The translations under genes were made by a program, and so were the position numbers. Below the pieces are notes generated by a model that was not told the DNA's origin, did no database searches, and saw only the letters and a program-made list of their open reading frames with translations. 64,000 bases of DNA from assembly GCF_036250675.1 (NCBI RefSeq), contig NZ_CP109592.1, positions 1,426,001 through 1,490,000 on the forward strand, written 5' to 3'. The DNA is from Streptomyces sp. NBC_01689 (GTDB taxonomy: Bacteria; Actinomycetota; Actinomycetes; Streptomycetales; Streptomycetaceae). Positions 13,132 through 40,787 of the stretch are shown here, one piece after another. How positions within the stretch are numbered: position 1 is the stretch's first letter; each line of letters opens with the position of its first letter.

Positions 13132-13354
13132 GCGCCACCGCCGCGGGTCCCGCGACGCCCCTCGACCGCACACCTCGACCGCGCACTCCAACCCCGCACC
13201 TCGACCGGGGGTCGCACCGGCCCACGTCGAGCGATGCGAGCGATTCCCCGGAGCGCCGGCCGTGCCCTCCTCCTCGACGACGGATACGGAACCACCCGTC
13301 ACGCTTCCGCCTACCGTCCAGTAATATCTCGCGGAGACTCCAGGAGGAGGAACC

Positions 13355-13735
13355 GTGCCACGGTCGGAACGCTCAGCCCTGTTGCTCGCCGGTCTGCTGG
13401 CGACCGCGGGGGTCGGTCACTTCGCGGCGCCCGAGCGGTTCGACGCGACGGTTCCCCGCGTGCTGCCGGGAGCTCCCCGCGCCTGGACCTACGTCAGCGG
13501 GGCCGCCGAACTGGCGCTGGCCGCGGGGGTGGCGCTGCCCCGTACCCGGCGCGCCGCCGCGCTGGCCACGGCGGCATTCTTCGTCGGGGTGTTCCCCGCC
13601 AATGTGCAGATGGCCGTGGACTGGCGTCACCGTCCCGCGCCGCTCAAGGCCGCGGCGCTCGCCCGGCTTCCGTTGCAGGTACCGCTGGTGCTGTGGGCAC
13701 GCGGCGTCGCCAGGAGTGGGAAGGGCCGGTCATGA
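13355..13735 (+). CDS. DoxX-like membrane protein
   Basis: A 126-aa protein with four hydrophobic segments and the DoxX-family pattern GVGHFAAPERFDATVPRVLP, SGAAELALAAGVALPRTRRA and FPANVQMAVDWR. The GTG start at 13355 is preceded by a strong AGGAGGAGG. Its stop overlaps the start of a peroxiredoxin gene (ATGA), so the two are translationally coupled; DoxX proteins in actinobacteria have been linked to membrane-associated oxidative stress complexes, which fits this pairing (inference). The upstream spacer 13132-13354 holds three copies of CCTCGACCG and no gene. Confidence 0.88.
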   Translation: MPRSERSALLLAGLLATAGVGHFAAPERFDATVPRVLPGAPRAWTYVSGAAELALAAGVALPRTRRAAALATAAFFVGVFPANVQMAVDWRHRPAPLKAAALARLPLQVPLVLWARGVARSGKGRS

Positions 13736-14996: not shown

Positions 14997-15275
14997 GAGT
15001 GGTTCCCCCTGTGAGTGATGGTCCGTTGTCGGACACCGCCACAGTGGGCGCCGCGGCCACCGGGCGGCAACGGCTTTCCACCCTCGTCGAAGTGACCGCG
15101 TGGGCAGCGGAGTTGACGTTCGGATGTACTGCCGTCGACGTCCCGGTGGTCGCTGGACGTCCATCCGTCCGAGTCCGTGATCTTGTTCCCTGGCCGGCCG
15201 TCGCAGTGGATACGCTCCCGAGCGGATGGATCCGATGGGGCCGGGTGTGCCGCCCCGCGACGGGGACGGCTCACT

Positions 15276-18200
15276 GTGCGTAGGCAGCGGCAGACGTCGG
15301 GCGGCGACGGCGGGGCGGGTGACCGCGGCCGGGGGCCCGCAGGTACGGACACGGCAGGCGGGACCAACAGGATCCAGGCGGTGCGGCCGGCGTCCGCGGC
15401 GACGGCCCCCGGCATGACTCCTCAGGTGCTGCCGGCCCTGCAGCGGTCCGCCGGGAACGCGGCGACGGCCCGCGCGCTGCGCGGGCGCTCCCCGGCGGTC
15501 GAGGGCCCGGCCGGGACCGGGCTCGCTCCGCGCCCCGGGCCCGCCGTGCCGGCCACCGTCGAGGAACTCCCGGAGAGCGGGGCCGCCGTCAAGCTGCCCA
15601 CGGTGCTTCCGGCCCTCCAGGAGGAGGACGAGAGCGGGCTGGAGACGCGGACCGTTCCCCCGCGCGCCACCGCCGCTCGCGCGGGCCGCGGCGGCCGGCG
15701 GCGGCCCGGCACCCCGGCGGCCGCCACCGCCCCGGCCGCACCCCATGTGCCCCTCGGACTGCCGCCCTACCTCCGGGAGTTACGGGCCGCCGGCCTCTCC
15801 ACGGCGTACCGGCTGACCGGGCACGAGTTCGTCTCCACCACTCTCGCCACGGTCGTCGGCCGCTCCGACGGGGCGGTGGCCGAGATCCGCGAGGAACTGG
15901 CCGGTCGCCCCGAGAGCTTCTACGGCCAGGGGCGCTCCTTCACCGTCGAAGGGCCCGAGGGGAAGGGCTGGTACGACGTCACCGTCACCGTGTCCCGGGA
16001 CAGTGCCGACCTGCCCGAGACCTTCGTCCCACCCGAGGCGGCGGGGGCACGGGCCGCGGCGGCCGACCAGGACCGGGCCGTGGCCGCCCTCCCGGCCGCG
16101 GCGGAGACCTCCGCGGGCAAGGGCAAGGGCAGGGCCCGCGCCGACGACGGGCGCGACGGCGACGGCACCTCCGCGCCCCGGGCCGGGACCGACCCCCGGC
16201 AGGCGGCACAGGCGGCGCGCGAGGCCGAGGGGGCCGCCGTCAAGGTGGACGCCCAGCACGACACCTCGGGTGCGGTGAGCCACAGTTCGGGACGCTCGGC
16301 CGCGCAGGGGGCCAACTTCATGGCGTTCGGGCTGGCGCCGGTGGTCCCCGGTGTGTGGGCCGGCGGAGCCGTTTCGGCGAACGCGCAGCCGTTCCTGTCC
16401 AGCAGGGACACCCGGGTGCAGAAGGCCGTGTCCGAACCGCGTGTGCTGCGCAGCGACAAGGGCTCGGTCGAGATCCCGAGACGGGTGCGTTACGGCGTCC
16501 GGATCAGGCGGCAGGGCGAGCCCGCGCAGACCTTCGGCAGCGGCGGGGCGCTGACGATGCGGGTGCCCACCGAACACCTGGTGCCCGTCACCGCCGAGGC
16601 GCCCGCGCCGGACCGGCTGCGGCCCCTGGACGCCGTGTCGGCGAACCGGGTGCGGCTCGCGGACTCCCTGGCCCCGGTCGCGCTGGACGACGCGGCGGCG
16701 CCGGAACCGGGCGGCGGCGGGCTGTTCGACACCGTCCGCTCCGTGCTGCACCCTTCGCTGACCTCTCCGGGCGCGCCGGGGCGGGCCCGGTTGCACGACG
16801 CCACGTCCACCACGACCGTGCTGGAGGACCTGCCCCGGCTGCTGGCCGGCTGGGTGATGGGCGAGGACCTGGTGGCCAAGGACGGCAGCGCCACCGGCAG
16901 TTACCGGATGCGGGCCGATCTCACCGGCCTCGCACCGGCCTGGTCGATCGGCGGGACGCAACTGCGTACACACCAGCAGACACAGCACACGGTGTCCCAC
17001 TCGGCGGGCAAGGGGCGCGGCGGCGCCTTCGGCGCGGGTCCGGCGGCCGGGTTCGGCGTCCTCGGCGGCGCGGCGGCGGTGCGCGGGACGGTCATGCCCA
17101 CGGCGGCCGCACGCAAGGCGCGGTTCACCGTGGCCGAACAGACGGTGACGAGCCGTCAGGGGGCCGAGGTCCGGGGTGAGAAGGTGCTCTACTTCGGCCG
17201 GGTGCGGTTCCGTGCCGAGGGCACCGGGCCGCTCTCCCCCGCGATGAGGGTGCGCGCGGGAACGCGCGGCGCGCAGCACTCGATGGACGTCTGGGTCGGC
17301 TTGCGGGCCGACGAGGCCCAGGCGCTCGGGCTCCCGTTGCCGGACGGTGTCACCGCGAGCCCGATGGTCGCGGCGCCCGCCGGGGCCGACACCGGGGTGG
17401 ACTCCGGCTCCGCCGCCACGGACACCGCACCGGCCGGCCGGCACACCGGGGTGAGGAAGCGCGGTGGGAACACCGCGGCCCCCGGCGGCCCGGCCGGGGC
17501 GGAGACGGAAGCGGAGCCGGGCGGCTCGCACGCGGTCCGGGGCACCCGACGTCATCTGCCCTTCGGGGCCATGGGATCGAGCGTCACGATCAGCCGACTC
17601 GACACCGCGCCCCTGCTGTCCGGCATAGAACGCCTCTTCACCACCGATCCGCGGCTCGCGGGGTATCTGCCCTCCTTCGGCCCGGGGCCCGCGGCGGAGG
17701 TGAGCCGCGAGGAGGCCGAGGCGCAGCGCCGCAACTACCGCGAGCTCGTCACCGTGCTCTCGGAGACCAACCTGCGGGTGAACAAGGACCAGTTGCTCTC
17801 CTCCGGGATCCGTGTGCGGATGCGGCGCAAGAGCCGGTGGCACGCGCACGACGTGCAGGTCCGGGTCGTCGGCGCGCTCCGCGAGACGGGACATCTGGGC
17901 GACACCGCGGACTGGCTGGTGCGCAGCCACTCCGGGGTCAGCAGCACCTCCCAGAGCGGCCGTTCCAGTTCACGCTCGGTCGGGGGCCTCGCGCTCGGCC
18001 AGTTCCGGCTCGTTCCGGGAGTGCTGTCCGCCTCGGTGCGCGGCGAGCGGACCCGGCAGAGCTCCCGGCGCAACCAGGCGGGCCCGGCGACGCGTACCGA
18101 CGTGCTGACCAACGGCGGTGAAAGCACCAGTTCCTTCGGCGGAGCGCTGCGCCTCGACGTCGATGTCACCCTGACCACCCGCGAGCGGACCGCCCGGCGC

Positions 18201-27740: not shown

Positions 27741-29144
27741 TCACACGGTGAACTTGACGGCTTCGAGCCAGAGCGACTGGTCCAGGGTGCCGCCGAAGAT
27801 GTACGAGGGCGGCTTGTTGCACTGCAGGCCGAGCCAGGCCCGGTCGTGGACGTGGGCGTTCTGGCAGATGGTCCCCTCACCCACGTTGATGCCGAAGGCC
27901 AGCATGTACGGGTCGTCGGCCTTGGTGGATCCGAGATACAGGTCGACGCCGTCGGCCACGCTCGTCCAGGGGTTCAGCCACTCCTTGACGTGGACGAACT
28001 CGTTGCCGTTCACGCCCTTGGTGCCGGACACGGCGAGGTTGAGGGACTTGATCGGCCGGTTCTGTCCCACCGTGCCCGCCAGCGCGCCGTCGCAGACCGG
28101 CTTCTGCCAGCCCTCGCCCGTCTCGTAGGCCCGGTAGCAGATGTGCCGGACGCCCGGGTCGTCGGCGGCGAGCCGGGTGACCGCGGTCGCCGCCGTCACC
28201 ACGGGGGCCTTGGTCTCCTCCTTCTTCTTCTCCTGACCGCCGCCCCCGCCGCCTCCGCCGGCCGGCTTCCCGGTCGGGGTCGGTGCGGCCTCCTGGGTCG
28301 GGGCCTGGGCGGGGATCGAGGGCGGCGGGAGCGGCAGGGACGGCGAGGGACTGGGCGGCAGGGTGCTGACGCCGGCTTCCTGGAGTTTCTCCGTGGCGGC
28401 GCTGCGGACCTGCGGCTTGTAGGCCAGCCACAGCATCACGAAGGTGATCGCGAGCGCCATGAACACCCCCAGGAACGTCGCCAGCCAGCGCGGCAGGAAA
28501 CCACGCTGGACATACGTCCCCTCCACCGGCTGGGCCTTGACCCCGGACCGCTGCACACTCAGCGCGTAAGGCCGCTGCTCCTTCGACCCGAACCAGATGA
28601 TCTGCCGCGGCCTCAACGTCGCCTTGACGAACGCCGCCCGCCCCGGTTCGATCTGCACATTCCCCGGATGGATGTCGTACGACAGATGATCCCCGGTATC
28701 GCCCCCACCCACCGACGCCGTCAACCGCGTATTGCCGAGGTTGTCGATCGCCAGCCTCGAACGCCCCCTGAACCGCCCCTTGACCGTCGGCGGCACCAGC
28801 TCCGCCCGCACCTCGGTGAAAGGCGTGATCGTCAGGTTGCCCTCAGGGACCGTCGTCGCCTCAGGATGCTCGGTCGGCGTGATCCGCACGGCGTACGGAT
28901 GAGGACCCGCGCTCGCGTCAGGACTGCGCGGCGGCGCGAACGTCAGCTCCACCGTCCCCGTCGTCCCCGGAAACAGCCGCAGACTCCGCGGCTCCACCGA
29001 CGTCCACGGAGCCACCTCACCCACCGGCTCGAAACGGTACTCGTCCACCACATCACCGGTATTGCGCAGACGCAGCCGCACCTTGGTACTGCCACCGGGA
29101 TCCACAGTGCTGGAGGCGGGCTCCAGCGAAGTCCATAGGCTCAC
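27741..29144 (-). CDS. eCIS-locus membrane protein with C-terminal ChW-like repeats
   Basis: A 467-aa protein. Residues 1-200 form two Ig-like, COG1470-type domains (SSTVDPGGSTKVRLRLRNTG, EVAPWTSVEPRSLRLFPGTT). One transmembrane helix follows at about 217-238 (WLATFLGVFMALAITFVMLW), then a Pro-rich stretch, an 8-Gly run and a Lys/Glu patch, and a C-terminal domain with two ChW-like repeats (GEGWQKPVCDGALAGTVGQN and KEWLNPWTSVADG). No signal peptide is seen, so the Ig part should be cytoplasmic and the ChW part outside. Similar genes occur in Streptomyces CIS loci, and one (CisA, as I recall) recruits particles to the membrane; that equivalence is inferred. It runs against the structural genes. 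Confidence 0.82.
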   Translation of the reverse strand: MSLWTSLEPASSTVDPGGSTKVRLRLRNTGDVVDEYRFEPVGEVAPWTSVEPRSLRLFPGTTGTVELTFAPPRSPDASAGPHPYAVRITPTEHPEATTVPEGNLTITPFTEVRAELVPPTVKGRFRGRSRLAIDNLGNTRLTASVGGGDTGDHLSYDIHPGNVQIEPGRAAFVKATLRPRQIIWFGSKEQRPYALSVQRSGVKAQPVEGTYVQRGFLPRWLATFLGVFMALAITFVMLWLAYKPQVRSAATEKLQEAGVSTLPPSPSPSLPLPPPSIPAQAPTQEAAPTPTGKPAGGGGGGGGQEKKKEETKAPVVTAATAVTRLAADDPGVRHICYRAYETGEGWQKPVCDGALAGTVGQNRPIKSLNLAVSGTKGVNGNEFVHVKEWLNPWTSVADGVDLYLGSTKADDPYMLAFGINVGEGTICQNAHVHDRAWLGLQCNKPPSYIFGGTLDQSLWLEAVKFTV

Positions 29145-29283: not shown

Positions 29284-30927
29284 TCAGCGCCGGGGCAGCG
29301 TCCCTCCGGTCGCCACGAGGACGAACTGCGCGTAGGAGTCGGCGTTCATCAGGGCCCGGCGGCCCATCGCGTACCAGTTCAGCTGCTTCGCGGGGTGGGC
29401 CGACTCGTCCTTGCCGGTGTACTGGTCCGCGTCCCGGGCGACCCGCTTGCCCAGCCGGTCCGCCGAGTAGTCGGCGAGCTCCTGCTGACTCCATCCCAGC
29501 GTCTGCGCCGTTCCCGTGTCGGCCCGGTCCTCGTTGAGTTCGTGCTCGTAGGGGCTGTACTGGTAGTCGAGCGTGCCCGCGAACCGGTGCGTGGCCTCGT
29601 GGATGATGTACCAGACGTTCTCGCCGAGGGCGCGCAGGTTGATCGGGCCGCCGCGCCCGGCGTCCATGGTCGGCAGTTCCTCGCTCTTCATGTCGTGCGG
29701 ACTGAGGCGTTCGCCGACGGTGGGGGCGACCCACCCGGCCACGTTGACCTGGTTGGATCCGAGCGCCCCGAGGTCGTACCAGGAGGTCTCGCCGGCCAGC
29801 GCTATCTGCGCGCCCGCCGCGTCCAGCCCCCGCTGGACGCGGCGGAGCACCTCGGCGACGTGGGGCAGGAGCGGCTGGATCTCCTGGGGCGTGGCCCGTT
29901 GGAAGGCCGGGAAGCCGGAGCGGAGCGCGTCGAGCACCGGTCCGCCGGGGGCGCCGCTCGCGCTCACCATGGTGAGGGCCGTGGCGAGACGCTGCTTGGT
30001 CTCCACCAGCGCTCTGCGTACGTTGGCCTCGCGCTCCTTGTAGGCGGTGCCGTCCCGGTGCGCCTGGGGCGTGTCGGGGATGGTGCCGCGCTGCGAGAAG
30101 GCGATGTTGCCGCTGCCGAAGTGACGTCCGGTGGCGTCGTCGAACGTGTCCCCGTGATGGGCACCGGGGGCGCCCAACTGGGCCGAGGTGGCGGTGCGGT
30201 GGGGATTCGCCTCGTCCTGCCAGACACCCTCCTGCTGCCCGCCCGTGACGCCGTGCGTCCGGGTGCTGGCGTTGTAGGTCCAGACGGTGCGCTGGATCGC
30301 CGGTGCCCCCGACGCCTGCCCGGGGCCGGTCGTCCCCGTGCCGTCGGCGACCGCGCGCTGCACCGGGGGCGCCCCGCTCATCACCCGCCGGGCGTTCTCC
30401 TCGGCCTGGACCTCGGCCCAGTCCCCGGTGTCGGACACCATCAGTCCGGAACCGTTGTCGGTGCCGGGGACGGGACCCCGGCTCTGCTGGCGGTAGTGGT
30501 CCAGCTCGTGGGCGAGGACGTGCTTGTCCTGGCCGTCCCAGACCACGTCGGCACCGGAGGTGAAGGCCTTCGCGCCGATCGCGGCCGCCGCCTGCCGGGC
30601 CGCCGCGTCGGTGTGGACGCGTACGCCGCTGAAGTCCTCACCGCCGTAACGGCCTTCCATCTCCGTCCGCAGCGGTGCGTCCAGCGGCCGCCCGGGAGAG
30701 CGCAGCACCTCGTGCACCGCGGAGCGCTGCACGGACGGGCCGTGTCCGCAGTCCGCGCCGTGCTCGTGGCGCTGCTCCTCGACGGCGCGGGCCACCGCCG
30801 CGTTGCCCGCGGCGCGCTGCAGCACCTGGAGCCGGCCGGCGGGTCCCGGCGCGGCGGCCCGTGCGGCCGGGCCGGCCGCACCCGCCCGGCCACGGGTCTT
30901 GTCGGTGTCCTTGTCCTGTGCGTGCAC
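29284..30927 (-). CDS. DUF4157 protein with C-terminal deuterolysin-like metallopeptidase, candidate cargo
   Basis: A 547-aa protein starting at GTG 30927 with GGGGAG upstream. Residues 33-49 carry VLQRAAGNAAVARAV; residues about 75-150 are the DUF4157 domain (FSGVRVHTDAAARQAAAAIG, HVLAHELDHYRQQ with a HELDH metal motif). The C-terminus has a second zinc motif HEATH at 443-447, followed by RFAGTLDYQY (third-ligand Asp region) and ALMNADSYAQF near 525-535. HExxH plus GTxD plus NADSYAxF is the pattern of M35 aspzincin / lysine-specific metalloendopeptidases. DUF4157 proteins accompany eCIS as cargo or cargo carriers, so this looks like a toxin protease to be loaded (inference). VQR/IQR motifs recur at about 66, 189 and 211. 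Confidence 0.85.
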   Translation of the reverse strand: MHAQDKDTDKTRGRAGAAGPAARAAAPGPAGRLQVLQRAAGNAAVARAVEEQRHEHGADCGHGPSVQRSAVHEVLRSPGRPLDAPLRTEMEGRYGGEDFSGVRVHTDAAARQAAAAIGAKAFTSGADVVWDGQDKHVLAHELDHYRQQSRGPVPGTDNGSGLMVSDTGDWAEVQAEENARRVMSGAPPVQRAVADGTGTTGPGQASGAPAIQRTVWTYNASTRTHGVTGGQQEGVWQDEANPHRTATSAQLGAPGAHHGDTFDDATGRHFGSGNIAFSQRGTIPDTPQAHRDGTAYKEREANVRRALVETKQRLATALTMVSASGAPGGPVLDALRSGFPAFQRATPQEIQPLLPHVAEVLRRVQRGLDAAGAQIALAGETSWYDLGALGSNQVNVAGWVAPTVGERLSPHDMKSEELPTMDAGRGGPINLRALGENVWYIIHEATHRFAGTLDYQYSPYEHELNEDRADTGTAQTLGWSQQELADYSADRLGKRVARDADQYTGKDESAHPAKQLNWYAMGRRALMNADSYAQFVLVATGGTLPRR

Positions 30928-31111
30928 TGGGACTCCCCTCGAACGCGGGTGCAGCAGCCTCCAAGGCCTACCGGACGGAGCGGCCCGGAGGGAACGTACT
31001 CGGGGGCAACGGCGGGGGCAGGGCCGAGGGGCGGCGGTACGGGCGGCACGCCGGGCTGCCCCTGCGGGCACCATCTCTGCCCCCGGGCAGGTACCGCAGG
31101 ACGTTTCGGCG

Positions 31112-31128
31112 CACGCGCTTCGCGCGTG
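31112..31128. promoter_or_regulatory. Inverted repeat in the sheath / DUF4157 divergent promoter region
   Basis: CACGCG-CTTCG-CGCGTG, 6-bp arms with a UUC-type loop, 44 bp before the sheath start. The 244-bp divergent spacer 30928-31171 must hold the main promoter of the structural operon; this is the clearest symmetric site in it. Confidence 0.35.
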
Positions 31129-31171
31129 AGGCTGAATGACGTCCCATCTCGTACCCCGAGGAGAGCAGAGC

Positions 31172-32752
31172 ATGCCGTCCTACCTGTCGCCGGGCGTCTA
31201 CGTCGAGGAGGTGGCCAGCGGCTCTCGTCCGATCGAGGGGGTGGGCACCTCGGTGGCGGCCTTCGTCGGGCTCGCCCCGTCGGGACCGCTCAACGAGCCG
31301 ACGCTGGTGACCAACTGGACGCAGTACGTCGCGGCCTTCGGTGAGTTCACCGACGGGTACTACCTCGCGCACTCCGTCTACGGGTTCTTCAACAACGGTG
31401 GCTCCGCCGCCTATGTCGTGCGGGTCGGCGGGGTGCCGGGCGGCGTGAACGGCGACGCGGCGGCTCCGGCCGCGGTGGCGGGTTCCGCGGCACAGGCCGC
31501 GCTGATGCCCGGGGAACCGCAGCAGCTCGGCACGTTCACGGTCAGCGCCGTCGCGGGCGGCTCGCTCAGCGTCGAGGTCGCCGACCCCGACGGCGAGGGC
31601 CCCGCGGAGCGGTTCAGGCTGATCGTCAAGGACGGCGAGAAGGCCGTCGAGACCTTCGACGTGACCGCGAAGAAGGGCGGCCGCACCTACGTGGTCACGC
31701 AGGTGAAGGAGCGCTCGAAGCTCATCACCGTGCAGGAGGCCGCGCCCGCCGCGCAGTTGGTCCGCCCCGACAACCAGACGGTGGCGCTGGCCGCCCCCGC
31801 GCCCTCGGCACCGGCCGTGCGGGACGAGGAGCGGGACGGTCACCCCGGCCCGGCGCAGTACCTCGGCGACTCGGCCGACCGCACCGGCTTCGGCGGCCTG
31901 GAGGCCGTGGACGAGGTCTCGATGGTCGCGGTGCCCGACCTGATGGCCGCCTACCAGCGCGGCGCGATCGACCTGGAGGCGGTCAAGGCCGTCCAGCTCG
32001 GTCTGATCGCGCACTGCGAGCTGATGGGTGACCGGGTCGCCGTCATCGACCCGCCGCCGAGCCTCAACGCCCGTCAGATCCGTGTCTGGCGCCAGGAGAC
32101 GGCGGGTTACGACTCCAAGTACGCGGCTCTCTACTACCCCTGGATCAAGGCGTTCGACCCGGCGACGGGCCAGACCAGGACGATTCCGCCGAGCGGCCAC
32201 GTCGCCGGCATCTGGGCCCGCAACGACTCCGAGCGCGGGGTGCACAAGGCCCCCGCCAACGAGGTCGTCCGCGGTGCGGTGGACCTGGAGCTGCAGATCA
32301 CCCGGGGCGAGCAGGACCTGCTCAACCCCATCGGCGTCAACTGCATCCGTGCCTTCCCCGGCCGCGGCATCCGCGTCTGGGGTGCCCGCACCATGTCCTC
32401 CGACCCGGCCTGGCGCTATCTCAACATCCGCCGGTACTTCAACTACCTGGAGGAGTCGATCCTGATCGGCACCCAGTGGGTGGTGTTCGAGCCGAACGAC
32501 CACGCGTTGTGGGCCCGGATCCGGCGCAACGTGTCCGCGTTCCTGGTCAACGAGTGGCGCAACGGCGCTCTCTTCGGCTCACGGCCGGAGGAGGCTTACT
32601 ACGTCAAGTGTGACGAGGAGACCAACCCGCCGGAGTCGGTCGACCTCGGCCGGGTCATCTGCGAGATCGGCATCGCGCCCGTGAAGCCCGCCGAGTTCGT
32701 GATCTTCCGGCTGGCCCAGTTCTCCAGCGGGAACGGCGAGTTGGAGGAGTAG
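31172..32752 (+). CDS. Contractile sheath protein
   Basis: A 526-aa phage-tail-sheath family protein. The start MPSYLSPGVYVEEVASGSRP is the canonical sheath N-terminus (YxxPGVYxEE), and the C-terminal domain has GRGIRVWGARTMSSDPAWRY, NIRRYFNYLEESILIGTQWV and FEPNDHALW, the most conserved sheath block. A variable insertion at about residues 110-235 includes Ala/Pro-rich linkers. Only one sheath gene is present, whereas Afp/PVC carry three. ATG 31172 follows GAGGAG; the ORF extension to 31136 is not needed. First gene of the main structural operon, with a hairpin downstream at 32778-32799. Confidence 0.97.
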   Translation: MPSYLSPGVYVEEVASGSRPIEGVGTSVAAFVGLAPSGPLNEPTLVTNWTQYVAAFGEFTDGYYLAHSVYGFFNNGGSAAYVVRVGGVPGGVNGDAAAPAAVAGSAAQAALMPGEPQQLGTFTVSAVAGGSLSVEVADPDGEGPAERFRLIVKDGEKAVETFDVTAKKGGRTYVVTQVKERSKLITVQEAAPAAQLVRPDNQTVALAAPAPSAPAVRDEERDGHPGPAQYLGDSADRTGFGGLEAVDEVSMVAVPDLMAAYQRGAIDLEAVKAVQLGLIAHCELMGDRVAVIDPPPSLNARQIRVWRQETAGYDSKYAALYYPWIKAFDPATGQTRTIPPSGHVAGIWARNDSERGVHKAPANEVVRGAVDLELQITRGEQDLLNPIGVNCIRAFPGRGIRVWGARTMSSDPAWRYLNIRRYFNYLEESILIGTQWVVFEPNDHALWARIRRNVSAFLVNEWRNGALFGSRPEEAYYVKCDEETNPPESVDLGRVICEIGIAPVKPAEFVIFRLAQFSSGNGELEE

Positions 32753-32845: not shown

Positions 32846-33289
32846 ATGAGTCTCCAGCCCGGTGACGCCCTCACCTCACACAATTTCGGCCTGCAGATCG
32901 ACGGTGTCATGGTCGAGTACCTCGCGGAGGTCAGCGGCCTCAGCATCGAGCAGGACGTCATCGAGTACCAGCAGGTCTCCTCGCAAGGCATCCCGGTCAC
33001 CAAGAAGCTGCCGGGTGTGAAGAAGGCCGGCACCTGCACGGTGGTGCGCGGCATGACGCAGTCGGCCGCCTTCAACCAGTGGATCACCGAGTCGGTCGCC
33101 GGTCAGATGAGCACCGCGCGCAAGAACGCCACCATCATGGTGATGGACTATCAGAACAACCCGGTCAAGCGGTACAACATGCGCAACGCCTGGTGCAGCA
33201 AGATCGACACCAGCACCGTCAAGGCGGGCGAGGCCTCCGCGCTCACCGAGACCGTCACGATCACCTTCGAAGAACTGGTCATCGAGTAA
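32846..33289 (+). CDS. Inner tube protein 1 (Pvc1/gp19 family)
   Basis: A 147-aa tail-tube protein of the T4 gp19-like/Pvc1 family: SHNFGLQIDGVMVEYLAEVS, GLSIEQDVIEYQQVSSQGIP, GTCTVVRGMTQSAAFNQWI and SALTETVTITFEELVIE. It polymerises as hexameric rings inside the sheath. It is distinct from the second tube-like protein at 37658, as usual in eCIS, where one forms the tube body and the other the initiator ring near the baseplate. An AGAAGGACAGAG site precedes ATG 32846. The stop overlaps the next start (TAATG). Confidence 0.95.
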   Translation: MSLQPGDALTSHNFGLQIDGVMVEYLAEVSGLSIEQDVIEYQQVSSQGIPVTKKLPGVKKAGTCTVVRGMTQSAAFNQWITESVAGQMSTARKNATIMVMDYQNNPVKRYNMRNAWCSKIDTSTVKAGEASALTETVTITFEELVIE

Positions 33290-33786
33290 TGCGCCGTACG
33301 GCTCCCAGGGCCGCCGGGGCCGCGGCCGTCGCCGAACCGGTGGCGGAGGCGGAAGCCCGGCCGGGGCCGGAGCAGTCCGCTGCTCCGGCCCCGGCCCCGG
33401 CCGCGTCACCGGAACCCCTGCGCACCGAGTTCGAGTTCGAGCTGCCGCGCGGGTACGTCGACGACTCCGGCACCGTGCACCGCCTCGGCGTGATGCGACT
33501 CGCCACCGCACGGGACGAGTTGATCCCGCTCCGGGACATGCGCGTCCAGGAGAACCCGGCCTACCTGTCCGTGGTGCTCCTCGGCCGGGTCATCACCCGG
33601 CTCGGCACACTGCCCCTGGTCCACGACGGGGTGGTGGAGAACATGTTCGCCTCCGACCTCGCGTTCCTGCAGGACTTCTACCGCCAGGTCAACGCCGAGG
33701 GGCACACCCGTGCCGCCGTCACCTGCCCGCACTGCGAGGAGCCGTTCGAGGTCGAACTCGGCGGGAGCCGCCTGGGGGAATCGTGA
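33289..33786 (+). CDS. Small Zn-knuckle protein, tail-assembly-chaperone-like
   Basis: A 165-aa protein. Residues 1-45 are Ala/Pro-rich; the ordered part begins LRTEFEFELPRGYVDDSGTV and includes LATARDELIPLRDMRVQENP, YLSVVLLGRVITRLGTLPLV and a C-terminal CPHCEEPFEVEL half zinc knuckle. Proteins with this conserved region directly follow the tube gene in Streptomyces-type eCIS and in many phages, where the small genes after the tube act as assembly chaperones for the tape measure. Role here is inferred from position. It starts inside the tube stop codon and its own stop overlaps the next GTG. Confidence 0.85.
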   Translation: MRRTAPRAAGAAAVAEPVAEAEARPGPEQSAAPAPAPAASPEPLRTEFEFELPRGYVDDSGTVHRLGVMRLATARDELIPLRDMRVQENPAYLSVVLLGRVITRLGTLPLVHDGVVENMFASDLAFLQDFYRQVNAEGHTRAAVTCPHCEEPFEVELGGSRLGES

Positions 33787-33941
33787 CGTACGCGACCGAC
33801 CGTATCCACGAGGAGATCGCGTACATCGCCTACCACTTCCACTGGAGCCTGGAGACCATCCTGGACCTCGAACACCGTGACCGGCGCCGCTGCACGGAGC
33901 AGATCGCGGCGCTCGTCCACCGCGGCTCCGGGGAGAGGTGA
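33783..33941 (+). CDS. 52-aa small protein (DUF6760-like) in the eCIS operon
   Basis: Reading frame GTG 33783 to TGA 33941 encodes VTYATDRIHEEIAYIAYHFH, WSLETILDLEHRDRRRC and ends HRGSGER. The motif HEEIAYIAYHFHWSxxxILxLEHxxRRxW is the small DUF6760-type protein seen in eCIS/phage-like loci (remembered family). The GTG overlaps the stop of the previous gene, and the next gene begins 6 nt later. Its place between tube and long protein corresponds to the second tail-assembly chaperone in phage tails. It is short enough to be missed by automatic annotation. Confidence 0.85.
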   Translation: MTYATDRIHEEIAYIAYHFHWSLETILDLEHRDRRRCTEQIAALVHRGSGER

Positions 33942-33947
33942 CGCGGC

Positions 33948-36900
33948 GTGGGCGTCTTTGACCGGCTGCGGAACGGCGGACGGGACCGGACGACGGGCGG
34001 CCTGCCGGTCACCGGCCCGGCCGACGGTCCCGTCACGGGCGACGGCACGGCTCCGTCCGCCGGTGTCGCCCCGGCGGCGAGTGCGTCCCCGGGGGCGAGC
34101 GATTCCGGCGGGGGAACGGGAGACCGGGTGGTGCGGTCCGCCGCCTGGTCCTCGATGCCGCCCATCCAGCGCGCCCTGGCCGGCCCTGGCTCCGTCGCCG
34201 ACTCCGGGTTCGGCGGCCGGCTGACGACCTGGCAGAACCCCTCCTTCACGGGCACCCTCTCGCACGCCGTGCTGGACGGTGCGCCCGGCGGCCTGGTGCG
34301 AGGCACGGCGACCACGTCCGCGCTGCCCGCCTCCGGCCTCGAACTCCCCTCGCTCTCCCTGCCGGTGGCGCCACCGGTGGACACGGCCGGCCCCGTTCCC
34401 GCGGGGCGCGCGGGGGTCCCGGTCGTGCCGACCGGCCCGAGCGTGACAGCGGTCCCGTCCGCGGCCACCCGACCCGCGGCCCCGGCCGGGCTCACCAGGG
34501 CGTCGGCCGCACCCGCGGTACAGCGGCGCGCGCTGCCGGTGGTGACACCGTCCGCGTCACGTCGTACCACGGCCGGCCCTTCGGCACCCACGGCGCCCGC
34601 TCCGCCGGTCACCGGCGAGGCCGGGTCCGGCTCCCCCGCTCCACGTGCCTTCTCCTCGGCCACGGACGCCACCGGCGCCGCCCCGGCCGCTTCCCACGGC
34701 CCGACCGCCGCCCCCGCCGGACCGGATGTGGCGTCTCCTGGTCACGCGGGCGGGTCCGCGGCGAACACCGGGCCGGCCCCTTCCGTCTCCGTCCAGCGGT
34801 CCCCGGTCCGCGGCGATGCCACGGACCCCGGCCTGCCGGCCCAACGCCGTACGTCCGGCGGTGCCGGGCCCATGGTGCCCGGTGCGACCGGGTCCGGTGG
34901 TCCGGCCCCGGCGACGGCGTCCCCGAACCCGTCCGCCGACGTCCCGGCCCCGGGCCGACCCCGCCGGCGCTCCGCACTGGGCGCGCCGCTGTCCTCCCCA
35001 CCCCCGGCCACGGCGCCTTCCGTACGGCTCGACCCGCCCGGGGTGGGTCCCGGTCCCGGAATCCCCGGTGCCGTGCGCGGAACGGGAGTCCCGGCGGAGC
35101 GATCGGGAGCGCCGGTCGGCGGGACGTCCCCGGCCACTCCGTCCGTCGGAGGGGAATCCCGGTCCGTGCCCCCGGCCGCGGGGCCGCCGGTGCAGCGCGC
35201 CGCCTCCGCCACGGCCCCGGCCTCGTCCGGCACCACCGGAACGCGTCGTGACCCGCACGAACCCCCGGCACGGAAGGATTCCGGTCAGTCCGCCGGGGCG
35301 GCCGTGCCGTCGCGCCCACGGGTACGTGCGCTCACCCCCGCCCGTGCCCTCACCTCGGCCCTGCCCGCCGTGCCCCCGGCCACCGCGGTCCAGCGCCGGA
35401 CCGCCCCCGCGGCCGTTCCGCTGCGGCGCGTCGCGCCCGCCGAGGGGCCTGCCCGTACCGGCGGTTCCCTGGGCCGCCGTCCCGCCCCGAGTGCCGAACG
35501 GTCCGGGAGCGCCGTGCCGGGCCCGCGCGACGGCGTCACCGGGGCCGTACCGCCACCCGTCGACGCCGTGACGGCGGCCCCGCCCGTCCAGCGCGTCCCG
35601 GCGACCGGCACCGGCACCGGAACCGGCTTGGACGCGGGCGCGGGCGCACCTGGTGACCCATCGGTGATCCGTCGTCCCGGCCCGTCGTCATCAGCGCCTT
35701 CGACACCCCGTGGCGGGCTGTCCGGTGCCGTGGGAGCCCTGGTCCGGCGGGCCGTGCCGGTACGGGGAACGGGCGGCGACCGTGGTCCGGCCGCCGCGGG
35801 GATCGACTCCCCTGCGGCACCGGGTGCCGCGGCGGCTCCCGGCGCTCCTGTCGTCCAGCGGTTCGCCACGCATACTCCCGCGCCGGCTCCCCCCGCGGAC
35901 CGGTCGCGTACCCGTGATCCTTCGGCGCGGGGCTGGTCGACGGCCGGAACTCCCGTGTCTCGCGCCGTCGTTGGCGCGGCGAACCCCGGCCCGACTGACT
36001 CGGGCACCCTTCCCCCGGCCGCGCACCCGACCGGTGGTCGCCCGGTGACCGGCCCGCGTCCGGACGGCCGCTCCCCCGCGTCCGGCACCGGTGGGGTGGT
36101 GGCCGGCCCGGTGACGGCCGGTGCCCCCGTCGTCCAACGCCTTGCCGCAGCGGCGCCCGCTCCCGGCTCCCCTTCGATCACCTCGTCGTCGCCACGCACG
36201 ACCGCGGCGCACACGGCGGGTAGCCCGGCAACGGGTGCGCCGACCAGGTCTGTTCCGGGCGTCCCCTTGCCCGGCCTCCGTGTCCCCGCGACGGGTCCTT
36301 CCGGTACCGTCCCGGCCGACCGCGTACCGTCCGTCGCGCCGGTCGGCCCGCACCCTGTCGCCCGGCCCGCCCCGGGCCGTTCCGGTGGCGCCGACCTGCC
36401 CGCCGTACAACGGTCGGCCGACGACAGCTCCCCGGGGTCCGGCGACCGCCCGCCGCCGGGTGCCCAACAGGCCGTCCCTGTCACGCCGTCGGACGCCGCA
36501 TCGGTCGCGACTGACAAGCAGTCACCGGTCCTGCAGCCCGGCCCGTCGGTCCCCGTTCCCTCGGGTGCGGCGGCACACCAGCCCGCCGTCTCCCGTCCCG
36601 GTGCCGGTTCTCGTCGGCCCGGTACACCCGTTCAACGGCTCGGCCTCGGTGCCCCCGTCGTACAGCGGGCCGCCACCGCGTCCGAGGCTTCCGGGGGCGT
36701 GCTGTCTCGCCCGCTCTCCGGAACACGGCACGGCGGAAAGCCGTCACCGAACGCGGCCACACCGGGTCCCACGGCGTCCACCGGCGCAACCACCGTGATC
36801 TCCCCCGAGGTTCAGCCTGCGGTGGCTCTGATCTCTTCACCGTCCGTGTCCACGGGCGACAGCGGCGCCGCGGAAGTCACCGGTCGGACACGGCGCGGCG

Positions 36901-37613
36901 ACGACCCGGTCGTGCAGCGCCTCACCGCTCCGGGCACACCCACCCTGCCGGCGAGCGTCCGGCGTCCCGTATCCGTGGTGCCGTACGCCCCGGCCGGGCC
37001 GTCGGCACGGTCGACGCCGAGCGCGCCGATCGCCGCGGCCCAGCACGGCGCCCACCGCTCCGCACCGCTGCCTCCGGCGAACCCGAACAGCCCATCCGGT
37101 ATGGCAAGTTCGCCTGCCTCCGCGCGCTCAGCGCGCCCGATCCACCCGACGCCCCCAGCGACTCCTTCGCCTCCTTCGCCTCCTTTGCCCCGAACGGGCG
37201 TGCCGCTCAACGCGGTTCCGGCCGCACCGCCCCTCGCCCTCCCGGTGCAGCGGGCCGTGGTGACGCCCCCCGCGCCGGTCGCCCCGAAGCCGGTCACACC
37301 CGCGGCACCCCCGCCCGTACAACGGGTCGTCAACCCGACGGCGCCCCCACCGCCTCCCCCTCCGTCCGGCCCCCCACCCGCGTACTCCGCGAGTGAACCC
37401 CCGCCCCCCTCCGCGCACTCGGGACACCGGGTTGCCGGCAGCCAGCAGGCTCCTCCCGCGTACACCCCCGTCGACTTCGATCCCCGGGCGTTGACCCCGG
37501 GACAGGTCGACGAGCTGACGCACAAGCTGGCCGGTCCGATCACCCGCCTGCTGCGGACCGAACTCCGTCTCGAACGCGAGCGGATCGGCAAGCTGCGCGA
37601 TCCCCGTCGCTGA
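33948..37613 (+). CDS. 1,221-aa Pro/Ala-rich protein with VQR repeats, candidate tape measure
   Basis: Starts at GTG 33948 (VGVFDRLRNGGRDRTTG). About 95% of the protein is Pro, Ala, Gly, Ser, Thr, Val and Arg, without predicted fold. Into this are set 13 VQR tripeptides and one IQR, usually preceded by Pro/Ala/Val (PVVQR, PPVQR). Only two ends look ordered: the first about 130 residues (SSMPPIQRALAGPGSVADSG, RLTTWQNPSFTGTLSHAVLD) and the last 50 (LTPGQVDELTHKLAGPITRL, LRTELRLERERIGKLRDPRR), a charged helix typical of the homologous proteins in Streptomyces eCIS. Its location after tube and two small chaperone-like genes is where phages encode the tape measure. VQR is shared with the candidate cargo proteins. 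Function is inference; the frame has excellent codon bias. Confidence 0.85.
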   Translation: MGVFDRLRNGGRDRTTGGLPVTGPADGPVTGDGTAPSAGVAPAASASPGASDSGGGTGDRVVRSAAWSSMPPIQRALAGPGSVADSGFGGRLTTWQNPSFTGTLSHAVLDGAPGGLVRGTATTSALPASGLELPSLSLPVAPPVDTAGPVPAGRAGVPVVPTGPSVTAVPSAATRPAAPAGLTRASAAPAVQRRALPVVTPSASRRTTAGPSAPTAPAPPVTGEAGSGSPAPRAFSSATDATGAAPAASHGPTAAPAGPDVASPGHAGGSAANTGPAPSVSVQRSPVRGDATDPGLPAQRRTSGGAGPMVPGATGSGGPAPATASPNPSADVPAPGRPRRRSALGAPLSSPPPATAPSVRLDPPGVGPGPGIPGAVRGTGVPAERSGAPVGGTSPATPSVGGESRSVPPAAGPPVQRAASATAPASSGTTGTRRDPHEPPARKDSGQSAGAAVPSRPRVRALTPARALTSALPAVPPATAVQRRTAPAAVPLRRVAPAEGPARTGGSLGRRPAPSAERSGSAVPGPRDGVTGAVPPPVDAVTAAPPVQRVPATGTGTGTGLDAGAGAPGDPSVIRRPGPSSSAPSTPRGGLSGAVGALVRRAVPVRGTGGDRGPAAAGIDSPAAPGAAAAPGAPVVQRFATHTPAPAPPADRSRTRDPSARGWSTAGTPVSRAVVGAANPGPTDSGTLPPAAHPTGGRPVTGPRPDGRSPASGTGGVVAGPVTAGAPVVQRLAAAAPAPGSPSITSSSPRTTAAHTAGSPATGAPTRSVPGVPLPGLRVPATGPSGTVPADRVPSVAPVGPHPVARPAPGRSGGADLPAVQRSADDSSPGSGDRPPPGAQQAVPVTPSDAASVATDKQSPVLQPGPSVPVPSGAAAHQPAVSRPGAGSRRPGTPVQRLGLGAPVVQRAATASEASGGVLSRPLSGTRHGGKPSPNAATPGPTASTGATTVISPEVQPAVALISSPSVSTGDSGAAEVTGRTRRGDDPVVQRLTAPGTPTLPASVRRPVSVVPYAPAGPSARSTPSAPIAAAQHGAHRSAPLPPANPNSPSGMASSPASARSARPIHPTPPATPSPPSPPLPRTGVPLNAVPAAPPLALPVQRAVVTPPAPVAPKPVTPAAPPPVQRVVNPTAPPPPPPPSGPPPAYSASEPPPPSAHSGHRVAGSQQAPPAYTPVDFDPRALTPGQVDELTHKLAGPITRLLRTELRLERERIGKLRDPRR

Positions 37614-37657: not shown

Positions 37658-38083
37658 ATGCCCACCGATCTCGACCCGGGATCCACCATCTTCTTCACCC
37701 TGACGATCGACGGCGAGAGCCTCGGCTACTTCAACGGGTGTGAGGGACTGTCGTCGCAGGTGGAGATCGAGCAGCGCCAGGAAGGCGGCAACAACGGGTT
37801 CGTGTGGCAGCTCCCGTCCCGCGTGACCTTCTCCAACATCCGGCTGACCCGCCCGCTCACCCCGGACACCGCCAAGGTCGCGGCCTGGATCTCGTCGGTG
37901 ACGACGGGGGTCGAGCGGCCGACCGCGCAGATCGCGGCCTTGCGCGCGGACGGTTCGGAGGTGGCGCGCTGGGGGCTGATCGACGTGCTGCCGGTGAGCT
38001 GGCAGGGGCCGTCCCTCGATCCGTCCAGTCCGGGTGTGGCCACGGAGGTCCTGGAGATCACCCACCACGGCTTCACGGACTAG
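37658..38083 (+). CDS. Inner tube protein 2 / tube initiator (Pvc5-like)
   Basis: A 141-aa tail-tube-family protein: STIFFTLTIDGESLGYFNGC, GLSSQVEIEQRQEGGNNGFV, SNIRLTRPLTPDTAKVAAWI and TEVLEITHHGFTD. It is a diverged paralogue of the tube protein at 32846, of the type that links tube to the baseplate spike. It is followed by the LysM baseplate gene, the standard eCIS order. ATG 37658 follows GAGAAAGG. Confidence 0.94.
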   Translation: MPTDLDPGSTIFFTLTIDGESLGYFNGCEGLSSQVEIEQRQEGGNNGFVWQLPSRVTFSNIRLTRPLTPDTAKVAAWISSVTTGVERPTAQIAALRADGSEVARWGLIDVLPVSWQGPSLDPSSPGVATEVLEITHHGFTD

Positions 38084-38142: not shown

Positions 38143-38880
38143 ATGGCAGGCAAGGCAGGAAAGGGCGGCAAGGGCGGTGCGGGCAAGAGTCTCGTGCGCG
38201 CCACGCTGGCCATCCACGAGCCGCCCATCGGGCACAGCACGACACCGGGCGCGTTGATCAAGACGTTCAACTTCGACTTCAATCCGTCCACGCTCTCCCT
38301 GAGCCGCCGCGCCCGCTGGAAGACCACTCCGACCGCGGCCGTGCGGGACGGCTCCCTCCCTGAGTTCATGGGTCCCGAACCGCGCGAGCTGACCGTCGAG
38401 ATCTTCCTCGACTCCTCCGACGACCCGACCAGCAACACCGTGCTGAAGAAGGTCGAGTCGCTCTTCTCCTGCTGCGAGGTGACGACGAAGAGCATCGCCG
38501 CCAAGCAGCCGTCCACACCGTGGGTGGTCTTCCAGTGGGGGTCGTTCTCGACCGCGCGGTTCACGGCGTACGTCGGTTCCGTGGAGGCGAGTTACTCGCT
38601 CTTCGGCACGACGGGCGTGCCGATCCGGGCCACCTGTCAGGTGCATCTGCACGAGATCCCCAGCAGGACCAAGGGCCAGAACCCCACGTCGGGCGCGCTC
38701 ACGGCGCAGCGTGTGCACCGGGTCGTGGCGGGCGACTCGCTGCAGTCACTGGCCTGGCGGGAGTACGGGAACGCGTCCGCGTGGCGTGCGATCGCCGAGG
38801 CCAACGGCATCGACGATCCGTCCCGGCTGTCGAACGGTACGGAGCTCGTGCTCCCGGCCGCCGAGGAGGTCGGTCTCTGA
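38143..38880 (+). CDS. LysM baseplate hub protein (Pvc7/gp53-like)
   Basis: A 245-aa protein with a Lys/Gly-rich start (MAGKAGKGGKGGAGK), a beta-rich tail-hub domain (FNFDFNPSTLSLSRRARWKT, ELTVEIFLDSSDDPT, TPWVVFQWGSF) and a C-terminal LysM motif at about residues 188-240 (HRVVAGDSLQSLAWREYGNA, WRAIAEANGIDDPSRL, LVLPA). In eCIS this protein clamps the spike-tube junction in the baseplate. The stop overlaps the ATG of the spike gene (TGATG). Confidence 0.95.
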   Translation: MAGKAGKGGKGGAGKSLVRATLAIHEPPIGHSTTPGALIKTFNFDFNPSTLSLSRRARWKTTPTAAVRDGSLPEFMGPEPRELTVEIFLDSSDDPTSNTVLKKVESLFSCCEVTTKSIAAKQPSTPWVVFQWGSFSTARFTAYVGSVEASYSLFGTTGVPIRATCQVHLHEIPSRTKGQNPTSGALTAQRVHRVVAGDSLQSLAWREYGNASAWRAIAEANGIDDPSRLSNGTELVLPAAEEVGL

Positions 38881-40787
38881 TGGTGCAGGCCTCGTACTCC
38901 AGCGTCGTCCACGTCACGGTCGGCGGCAGCCCGCTCCCGGACAAGATCGCCTCCGATCTGGTCGGCTGCTGGGTCGATCTCGGAGCAGGCGTACCCGGCG
39001 CGTTCCGGCTCACCTTCCGCGACCCGGACCGGCTGGTGCTCGGCGATCTCGGCGTCCGGTGCGGCACCGAGGTGGTCCTCGCGCCGGTGGCCGACGGCCA
39101 GGGCGCCTCGTCCCCGCTGCTGACCGGCGAGGTCACCGGCATGGAGACCGACTACGACGGCACCGGGACCTTCACGGTCGTACGCGGTTACGACCTCGGG
39201 CACCGTCTGCTGCGCCGGCGCAGGGTGGCGGCCTACCGCAACCAGACCGCGTCGGACATCGTGCGCAAACTCGTCGCCCTGAACGGCGTCCCGGTCGGCC
39301 CCAAGGTCGGCTCCACCCGGACCGTGTACGAGTTCATCAGCCAGGCCAACGTCACCGACTGGGACTTCCTGGCCCGGCTCGCCGACGAGAACGAGATGGT
39401 GATGTCACTGGACTCCCGCGGGAGGTTCCAGTTCGCCGAGCCGGACCCGGCGTCCGGAGCGCCCTCCACGAGCACCCCCGGCGAGAAGAGCCCGTTCGTG
39501 CTCCAGGGCGGCGTGGACGTGCTGCGCTGCCGGGCCGCGGTGACCTCCGCCGACCAGGTCGCCAAGACCGAGGCCCGCGGCTGGGACGTGGTGACCAAGA
39601 AGAAGCTCGTCGCGACGGCTCCCGCCACGGCCAACGCCGGCTTCGCCATCGGCGTCACTCCCGAGGACACGGCGAAGAAGTTCAGGACCGCGAAACTGGT
39701 GGAGACCGACACGCCCTACGACCGCCAGCCCGAGGTCAAGTTCGCCGCCGAGTCCCTGGCCGACGACGTCACCTCGTCCTTCGCGGAGCTGGAGGTGGTG
39801 GTCTGGGGGAACCCCAAGCTGCGCCCCGGCGTGCCGATCGCCCTCACCGACGTGGGCAAACCCTTCGAGGGCCAGTACACGGTCACCTCCGTCCGGCACG
39901 AGTTCGGCAACGACGAGCCGTACCGGACCTGGGTGACCGTCAGCGGGAGGCAGTGGCGCTCGCTGTACGGCCTGGCCTCCGGTGGCGGCACGGCCGGCAC
40001 GCCGAAGCTGCCGAGCGTGGCCAACGCCCTGGTCACGAACGTCCAGGACCCGCTCAAGCAGGGCCGGGTCAAGCTGCAGTTCCCCTGGCTGGACGACCTC
40101 TACGAGAGCGACTGGACGCGAACCGTGCAACTCGGCGGCAAGGGCGGTGGCGGGGTGTTCCCGTACGACGTCGGTGACGAGGTGCTGGTCGCCTTCGACC
40201 GGGGCGCCCTGGACCACCCGTTCGTGGTCGGCGGCCTCTACAACGGCAGGGACACCCCGACCGTCGTCAGTGACGTGCCGCTGCACGACGGGGTCAGGAA
40301 GCAGGCGATCCGGCACACCCTGTCCGACCGCAGGGGCAACCGCGTCGACCTGCTCAGCCAGCAGACCGGGGCGCGCAGACAGGGTGTCCGCATCGCCTCC
40401 GGCAACGACAAGCTGACCATCAACCTCGACCGTACGAAGACCGAGATCACGGTGGACAGCAAGGGCTCCGTCACCATCAAGGGCAGCAGGTCGGTGTCGG
40501 TGGAGGCGGGCACGGACCTCACCCTGAGCGCGCGCCGGAAGCTGACGATCAAGAGCGGTGGACTGCTCGACATCGAGGGCCGCGGGCTGGTCAACCTGAA
40601 GTCCCTGGGCGGGGCGGTCACCGTCGACGCGATGGGTGCCCTCAACCTCAAGGCGCTCGGTGCCGCGATGCTCACCGCGGGCGGCACCGTCCAGGTCAAC
40701 TCCGTCGCCGCGGTCGGGATCCGGGCCGTCACCATCCCGCTGCAGGGCCTGGTGATGGTCAACAACAAGCCCTATCCACTGCCGTGA
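38880..40787 (+). CDS. Central spike protein (VgrG/Pvc8)
   Basis: A 635-aa spike. Residues 1-370 are the gp27-like hub (VHVTVGGSPLPDKIASDLVG, FEGQYTVTSVRHEFG); residues about 385-460 are the gp5 OB-fold (ALVTNVQDPLKQGRVKLQFP, GDEVLVAFDRGALDHPFVVG, GLYNG); the last 130 residues form the beta-helix needle (ITVDSKGSVTIKGSRSVSVE, LTLSARRKLTIKSG). No lysozyme domain is present. The C-terminus ends NNKPYPLP without a PAAR domain, and no separate PAAR gene follows. ATG 38880 was chosen by overlap with the LysM gene. Confidence 0.96.
   Translation: MVQASYSSVVHVTVGGSPLPDKIASDLVGCWVDLGAGVPGAFRLTFRDPDRLVLGDLGVRCGTEVVLAPVADGQGASSPLLTGEVTGMETDYDGTGTFTVVRGYDLGHRLLRRRRVAAYRNQTASDIVRKLVALNGVPVGPKVGSTRTVYEFISQANVTDWDFLARLADENEMVMSLDSRGRFQFAEPDPASGAPSTSTPGEKSPFVLQGGVDVLRCRAAVTSADQVAKTEARGWDVVTKKKLVATAPATANAGFAIGVTPEDTAKKFRTAKLVETDTPYDRQPEVKFAAESLADDVTSSFAELEVVVWGNPKLRPGVPIALTDVGKPFEGQYTVTSVRHEFGNDEPYRTWVTVSGRQWRSLYGLASGGGTAGTPKLPSVANALVTNVQDPLKQGRVKLQFPWLDDLYESDWTRTVQLGGKGGGGVFPYDVGDEVLVAFDRGALDHPFVVGGLYNGRDTPTVVSDVPLHDGVRKQAIRHTLSDRRGNRVDLLSQQTGARRQGVRIASGNDKLTINLDRTKTEITVDSKGSVTIKGSRSVSVEAGTDLTLSARRKLTIKSGGLLDIEGRGLVNLKSLGGAVTVDAMGALNLKALGAAMLTAGGTVQVNSVAAVGIRAVTIPLQGLVMVNNKPYPLP

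Follow-up and report, generated by a model that had tools for sequence, protein, structure and literature searches.

This analysis concerns a contractile injection system (CIS) encoded in a 64,000-nucleotide stretch of Streptomyces sp. NBC_01689 (contig NZ_CP109592.1, positions 1,426,001 to 1,490,000), here called the window, and in particular the gene for a long protein at 33948..37613. On balance, we lean towards the view that this gene encodes a protein of the tube lumen and the probable tape measure of this CIS, with a C-terminus anchored at the hub, a chain that runs up the tube and VQR (Val-Gln-Arg) motifs whose docking is shared with cargo. A tape-measure role had been proposed in an earlier note on this DNA, and it is partly supported. 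The position stands, as the neighbouring gene matches PHROG 508 and the gene order is found in 98 of 98 loci used and in five loci from other genera. The control of length is still conjectural, no homology to a known tape measure was found, and the length of the protein drifts. The seat, path and length control of the long protein are what we infer from the observations given below.

The long protein and its parts are as follows.

33948..37613, + strand: protein in the tape-measure position, 1,221 aa, rich in Pro, Ala and Gly, with 13 VQR and 1 IQR
33948..33971, + strand: conserved first residues MGxxDRLR (N-terminal alignment A7)
34146..34295, + strand: conserved N-terminal island (W..xPPIQR...F...L.TWQNPSF...H.VL..AP.GL; alignment A7, 28 sequences), which contains the IQR
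34518..37325, + strand: disordered core, with all 13 VQR
37476..37610, + strand: conserved, probably helical C-terminal segment, the family anchor (alignments A1 and A5; amphipathic moment)

The frame 33948-37613 and a motif count bear out the size and the 13 VQR plus one IQR given in the earlier note. The protein is rich in Pro (18.8%), Ala (17.4%) and Gly (12.6%) and its longest run free of Pro and Gly has 16 residues, which agrees with the description of a Pro/Ala-rich core in place of a coiled coil. The 14 [VI]QR motifs compare with a mean of 0.22 in 20,000 composition shuffles, and none of the shuffles reached 14. The N-terminus had been called ordered; it is conserved in sequence, but AlphaFold2 predicts neither an ordered domain nor a confident fold there (mean predicted local distance difference test score, pLDDT, 58.3; predicted template modelling score, pTM, 0.19). 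The N-terminal island may be a binding segment. The C-terminus had been called helical and charged. An amphipathic sequence pattern is present, with a helical hydrophobic moment more than one standard deviation above shuffles in 96 of 98 relatives, and the helix is read from this pattern. No domain was found in the 1,221-aa protein in Pfam, PHROGs or NCBIfam, and PF13699 is absent from it too by Pfam. No hydrophobic segment was found either: hydropathy by the Kyte-Doolittle scale stays at or below 1.21 in every 19-residue window of the protein, and 1.6 is reached in 3 of the 98 relatives. A search of the strain's own genome with the 1,221-aa protein gave one match.

The gene belongs to a forward operon that encodes, in order, a Pvc16-type cap, an AAA+ ATPase, the sheath, tube 1, a chaperone, DUF6760, the 1,221-aa protein, tube 2, a LysM protein, a VgrG-like protein, gp25, baseplate J, Tail_P2_I and a zinc-ribbon/NADase-type protein. 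The last of these looks like CisA, a label that is our own. The genes closest to the long protein are listed here.

31136..32752, + strand: contractile sheath protein, 538 aa (Pfam Phage_sheath_1, 4e-32)
32846..33289, + strand: inner tube protein 1 (Pfam Phage_T4_gp19, 2e-30)
33292..33786, + strand: tail-assembly-chaperone-like protein, frame as searched with an approximate start; conserved core 33424-33783 (PHROG 508)
33783..33941, + strand: DUF6760 small protein, 52 aa (Pfam PF20546, E 1.6e-9)
37658..38083, + strand: tube protein 2 or tube initiator, Cis1b type (Pfam Phage_T4_gp19; PDB 9gtp chain a, E 5e-79)
38143..38880, + strand: CIS_tube and LysM protein, Cis7 type (Pfam; PDB 9gtp chain P, E 1e-116)
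38520..40787, + strand: VgrG-like spike protein, frame as listed, true start probably further in (Phage_base_V, Phage_GPD)

Judging from the matches of the tube initiator and the LysM protein to PDB 9gtp, which we take to be the S. coelicolor CIS, the system of the window is a type IId-like CIS. The order of tube, small genes, long protein, second tube and LysM hub that had been described before is confirmed by Pfam, and by PHROGs for the chaperone. Both small genes had been called chaperone-like. This holds for one of them, whose core matches PHROG 508 'tail assembly chaperone' with E 0.0028 and whose 32 aligned relatives all match it at E <=0.1 (best 6e-8); the other is DUF6760. The arrangement resembles that of the tape measures of phages, tailocins and extracellular contractile injection systems (eCIS) of the Afp14/Cis14 type. 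The gene is the largest of the tail operon as read, it directly follows the chaperone-like gene and DUF6760 and precedes the tube initiator and hub, and the length of its product fits particle length at two genus-level points. It differs from the Afp14/Cis14 type in the lack of detected sequence homology, in a core that is rich in Pro and Ala and has neither coiled coil nor membrane segments, in the repeated VQR and in a weak conservation of length.

Protein-database searches with C-termini reached few relatives, only one with that of the window's protein and five with that of a relative, and therefore loci were gathered through the sheath and through a C-terminal profile, which was built from 16 sequences. 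The sheath-based set consists of the best 80 of 320 loci, nearly all labelled Streptomyces. Tube 1 is present in all 80, and 48 extend to tube 2 while the rest mostly end too early. Leaving out five of the 48 picked long frames that were broken, masked or misfit (L013, L022, L023, L032, L072) gave 43 proteins with a mean length of 1,225 and 571 VQR against 8.3 expected, which makes VQR their most enriched tripeptide apart from X runs. Among 295 Streptomyces genomes the C-terminal profile matches 138 and the sheath search 197, other CIS types included. A further 60 Streptomyces regions were read and 59 were laid out. Of all 108 loci laid out, the window included, 98 were used (L006, L013, L022, L023, L032, L065, L072, L100, L105 and L147 were dropped), and each of these 98 has the order sheath, tube 1, chaperone, DUF6760, long frame, tube 2. 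Clades were defined by sheath identity, with clade A at least 85% identical, and clade D by a C-terminal motif. The long protein has 1,078-1,393 aa in clade A (42 proteins), 923-1,198 aa in clade B (10), 809-1,204 aa in clade C (34; mean 1,028 aa) and 543-945 aa in clade D (12). The sheath of S. venezuelae shares about 65% identity with the S. coelicolor sheath (PMC10066040), and this species may fall into clade C. For 60 random pairs from clade A, the sheaths are 89% identical on average and the cores of the long protein 39%, with 265 gap columns. One Streptomyces plasmid carries a long frame of 1,020 aa that is annotated as hypothetical. In a sample of the phylum the profile matches 13 of 396 genomes, 7 of them outside Streptomyces. 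Five of the 7 loci have the full order in the stretch read, two of these with an extra tube-like frame, and the remaining two are cut. The long proteins of these other genera contain 3 to 9 copies of [VI]QR, where 0.12-0.25 are expected. The long protein is a conserved family with a fixed place, conserved ends and a Pro/Ala-rich core of drifting sequence. In one Actinomycetota locus, L160, the protein in the tape-measure position has about 750 residues, and a DUF4157-like domain can be seen by eye in its middle, directly after a VQR.

If the long protein is the tape measure, its C-terminal segment would be a helix seated in the cavity of the hub or spike, as the helices of CIS plugs are. With the C-terminus at the hub, the N-terminal chain would run up the tube. 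Tube rings would be added around this chain up to the point where its conserved N-terminal island reaches the distal end and the cap binds. In place of a classical coiled coil, the tube would be spanned by the core, a disordered and half-extended chain with a rise of about 0.2 nm per residue. Since VQR docking would be common to the chain and to eCIS-core cargo, threading or retention of cargo would be a further function of the chain. Among the plugs (Alg6/Afp6/Pvc6/Cis6), the gene for Cis6 is located between those for the tube initiator and the LysM protein. A long protein is encoded between these two genes in Nostoc (annotated), Paenibacillus and Paraburkholderia (both by eye), and the presence of the family's C-terminal segment in or near the plug gene position suggests that it has the same seat as the plug. 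According to a passage of PMC8894135, assembly of AlgoCIS requires its plug, which sits as a trimer in the tube-facing cavity of the spike and has a helix at its end. For the Anabaena plug, a passage of PMC8894136 describes a partial model and a flexible loop that extends into the lumen. However, plugs are small, and in the window tube 2 separates the long protein from LysM. PDB sequence searches with the C-terminal profiles, whose motif is short, gave no match to a CIS chain. A bolder version of the proposal, which we offer only tentatively, is a disordered tape measure with two anchors, a plug-type helix in the spike and the N-terminal island at the distal end. VQR would then be a cargo code, one polypeptide would set tube length and string cargo, and in other lineages the loading domain would be fused into the tape.

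A helix rises by 0.15 nm per residue and an extended chain by about 0.35 nm. One of the species with measured particles is C. chliarophilus, whose genus name is presumably Calidithermus. The lengths given in passages of PMC12998442 are 217 nm for Roseiflexus castenholzii, 238 nm for Calidithermus chliarophilus and 365 nm for Deinococcus aquatilis. For S. coelicolor, particles of 268 nm with 61 sheath and 60 tube layers, all alike, are reported in a passage of PMC12237407; passages elsewhere give about 230 nm for mutant particles in vitro (PMC10066040) and 295 nm by transmission electron microscopy (PMC10020575). The LysM proteins of S. violaceorubidus and S. coelicoflavus, whose long proteins have 1,300 and 1,354 aa, are almost the same as that of 9gtp across about 239 residues; in four more named loci with a similar sheath identity the long protein has 1,285-1,393 aa. 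For these relatives of S. coelicolor a particle of 268 nm corresponds to 0.19-0.21 nm per residue (0.17-0.23 with 230 or 295 nm), and for four Deinococcus frames a particle of 365 nm corresponds to 0.185-0.24. The longer proteins are found in the genus with the longer measured particle. Both genus-level points lie near 0.2 nm per residue and come from relatives of the measured strains; they agree with a ruler and cannot prove one. A third point was sought in the Anabaena CIS (119 nm and 22 tube rings in a passage of PMC8894136) but not used, since the Nostoc plasmid locus with its 524-aa protein may be of another CIS type.

The link between VQR and eCIS-core (DUF4157) cargo and the possible relation of the C-terminus to the spike plug are points that go beyond the earlier note. 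In the four clades (98 proteins) the observed and expected numbers of [VI]QR are 637 and 9.5, 100 and 2.1, 310 and 7.7, and 76 and 1.6. Clade averages are 6 to 15 copies per protein, with a range of 1-31. At 1,123 sites PP is preferred before the motif and AA after it. The median spacing is 64 residues, and short gaps are avoided (below 15 residues, 1.4% against 16.9% at random; below 20 residues, 2.7% against 22.2%). The same motif occurs in a cargo-type gene of the window.

29284..31173, - strand: eCIS_core (DUF4157) cargo-type protein, frame as listed (Pfam PF13699, 3e-20)

The database copy of this protein (P0003, 547 aa) begins 82 residues later than the listed frame, and [VI]QR is present both before and after its core domain. 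Of 3,787 eCIS-core relatives found, the 120 that were listed all contain [VI]QR (361 against 25.5 expected), though these proteins are homologous and hence not independent. In 43 aligned eCIS-core proteins (A3), V66-Q67-R68 before the core and Q212-R213 after it are invariant. The long protein of the window resembles this cargo in [VI]QR and, through some of its relatives, in a core-like domain, the motif standing at conserved places in the cargo; it differs in having no core domain itself and many more copies of the motif. Among 30 more varied eCIS-core loci, [VI]QR is present in none of 7 that were labelled Tme-like by pattern and in 18 of 23 others, and three of the five others without it have Tme-like open-frame lengths. 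Outside Actinomycetota, 7 of 8 plasmid eCIS-core proteins have at least one [VI]QR (19 against 2.6 expected), not always at the core; this count excludes four Deinococcus loci and also L213, where the pattern found no core. VQR is thus more widely associated with eCIS-core proteins than with the long protein, an argument for a shared reader of the motif within the CIS. We infer that VQR is a docking motif for a CIS component, common to the long protein and to eCIS-core cargo. AlphaFold2 places the motifs of the eCIS-core protein within or bordering low-confidence linkers that flank the core on both sides. This placement would also suit a proteolytic processing site, with the long protein as a precursor to be cleaved in the course of assembly or following ejection, and a trypsin-like cut after R is plausible. 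Processing leaves the minimum distance between motifs and the preference for PP before and AA after unexplained, and we consider it quite improbable. On the docking motif, passages of PMC11297309 report that no particular conserved sequence could be found in the signal for loading of CIS toxins; VQR is not mentioned in passages of that paper or of PMC10066040.

Several observations were made on eCIS-core cargo and its surroundings. Just before the first VQR, at residues 53-62 of P0003, R53, H54, H56, C60 and H62 are invariant or nearly so in the relatives (A3), and the His and Cys residues could bind a metal. Next to the eCIS-core gene, 27741-29144 on the - strand encodes a protein of 467 residues that starts with an Ig-like part, has one hydrophobic segment as judged by eye and matches ChW. 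Its layout resembles that of the S. coelicolor effectors Sco4256-4258 as given in a passage of PMC10066040. On the + strand, 15177-20906 is a frame of 1,909 residues without a Pfam match, whose N-terminal part contains LQRSAGNAATARAL, like the conserved LQRAAGNAAV stretch of eCIS-core cargo; it may be another protein linked to the CIS but encoded outside the operon.

When plasmids were searched with the chaperone core, 41 records were found, with actinomycetes, cyanobacteria, Deinococcus, Paenibacillus, proteobacteria and one haloarchaeon among the matches listed, and 12 of the 41 were opened. In four Deinococcus plasmids, sheath, tube, chaperone, small gene and tube 2 are followed by one long open frame, of 1,506, 1,817, 1,831 and 1,973 aa from the first start codon (1,831 from the annotated start). 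These frames are rich in Pro and Ala and contain almost no VQR; a DUF4157-like stretch lies close to their end, and the last segment is similar. The core-like domain is annotated in three of the four plasmids and was also seen by eye. The long reading of the frames is supported by an N-terminal stretch that three of them share. Comparable C-terminal segments were found by eye in the 524-aa Nostoc protein, in a 534-residue Paenibacillus frame whose upstream frames look interrupted, in a Paraburkholderia frame of up to 905 residues stop to stop and in an uncertain Rhodococcus frame of 309-334 residues with no tube 2 annotated beside it. The alignments are short, with 23-35% identity to the Nostoc segment, and are suggestive of a relation of these four proteins to the long-protein family. 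A C-terminus pattern had no match in six plasmid loci; it was too narrow, and the segment was later visible by eye in some of them. No such long protein was found in the stretch read of a Brasilonema plasmid locus. In Haloferax (L206), an eCIS-core protein at 12279-13625 has four [VI]QR, and the stretch read has no long protein at the tape-measure position. For another haloarchaeon, Halogeometricum borinquense, a passage of PMC11566945 reports that a tape measure is absent and that sheath length is heterogeneous (mean 220 with a spread of 16 nm).

A described protein with a similar build is Tme (BN159_7576) of S. davawensis, which passages of PMC11126660 present as a tape-measure-related effector encoded just upstream of baseplate genes, about 70% disordered and with a DUF4157 domain. 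The long protein is likewise large, largely disordered and encoded upstream of hub genes, and the DUF4157 domain is common to Tme and to the Deinococcus and L160 members. Five Tme-type frames differ from it in their size (2,103-2,359 residues stop to stop), in a Pro content of 7-10% and in the absence of [VI]QR, and the sheaths of these CIS are 33-43% identical to that of the window. These likenesses, in particular the place and disorder of Tme and the core-like domain of the Deinococcus and L160 members, would fit a secreted effector, a cargo derived from a tape measure that is expelled on firing and acts in the target without a role in assembly. We regard this as improbable, as neither a Pfam, PHROG or NCBIfam domain nor any hint of a folded toxin domain at the C-terminus is seen in the window's protein, and aligned members all keep one short segment at that end.

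A number of observations weigh against the tape-measure reading. Strict conservation of length was looked for in pair comparisons and not found. In ten pairs with a sheath distance below 2% the long proteins differ by a median of 27 residues, and in 610 pairs at 8-12% the median is 67, the drift rising with distance. Scaled to the square root of length, the long protein varies more than the disordered linker of the chaperone in all four clades. If the protein is a ruler, such drift means that the particles of sister strains would differ by one or more rings. The comparison with particle length uses relatives of the measured strains, and the published values for S. coelicolor spread from about 230 to 295 nm. 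No periodic or ring-quantised spacing of VQR was found, including near one ring's worth of chain. No coiled coil is indicated by the 16-residue limit on runs free of Pro and Gly (no coiled-coil program was run), known tape measures gave no match in Pfam, PHROGs or NCBIfam, and the C-terminal profiles had no meaningful PDB match. In Deinococcus, full-length annotation is limited to the 1,831-aa frame, and shorter products are tabled for L201, L202 and L204. The expected S. coelicolor counterpart is not named among the detected proteins in the passages of a proteomics study (PMC10020575); in silico, tryptic peptides of 7-25 residues account for about half of the window's protein. An effector mutant had a mostly empty lumen in particles otherwise like the wild type, according to a passage of PMC10066040; a thin chain in the lumen might be invisible.

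Some of these points would be expected if the protein is a cargo rack or loading scaffold and no ruler. Such a disordered chain, held at the hub, would recruit or retain eCIS-core cargo in the lumen through VQR, and length would be set by something else. The unequal lengths in near-identical systems, the dependence of lumen filling on effectors (in a passage of PMC10066040), the VQR common to eCIS-core proteins and the five Tme-type CIS loci with a core-bearing long protein in the same operon region, without VQR, all fit such a scaffold. However, the Deinococcus chains are almost free of VQR, and the chaperone neighbour and the conservation of both ends are not predicted by it. The Haloferax [VI]QR without a long protein also indicates that the chain cannot be the only reader of VQR. 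A scaffold without ruler function is a possible explanation, though we find it doubtful.

Passages of three papers state that a tape-measure gene is absent from the Streptomyces CIS (PMC10066040, PMC12237407, PMC10286715), and a literature search limited to titles, starts of abstracts and passages found no paper that assigns a role to this gene. By gene order, the S. coelicolor counterpart would be numbered SCO4249. The passages of PMC12237407 describe a model of SCO4243-4248, SCO4252-4253 and SCO4260, which leaves SCO4249-4251 of this stretch outside it. In PMC13033682 the tag SCO4249 is attached only to PhoP, which looks like a mistaken locus tag. A different gene could fill the role, such as that for a coiled-coil protein of the Sle1 type encoded upstream of the sheath, which has remote similarity to phage tape measures (in a passage of PMC13277306). 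The same paper reports that particles of a sle1/sle2 double mutant have no apparent structural defects and that only 62 close homologues exist among 754 Streptomyces species, and it is very improbable that the tape measure is encoded there. Among the CIS of Gram-positive bacteria in the papers covered, that of S. coelicolor is the one best described in structure. If the long protein is the tape measure, the gene would fill the tape-measure gap for the uniform particles of S. coelicolor, with their 61 sheath layers and 268 nm. A rigid coiled coil would then be dispensable for length control, and cargo loading could be read from VQR as its signature.

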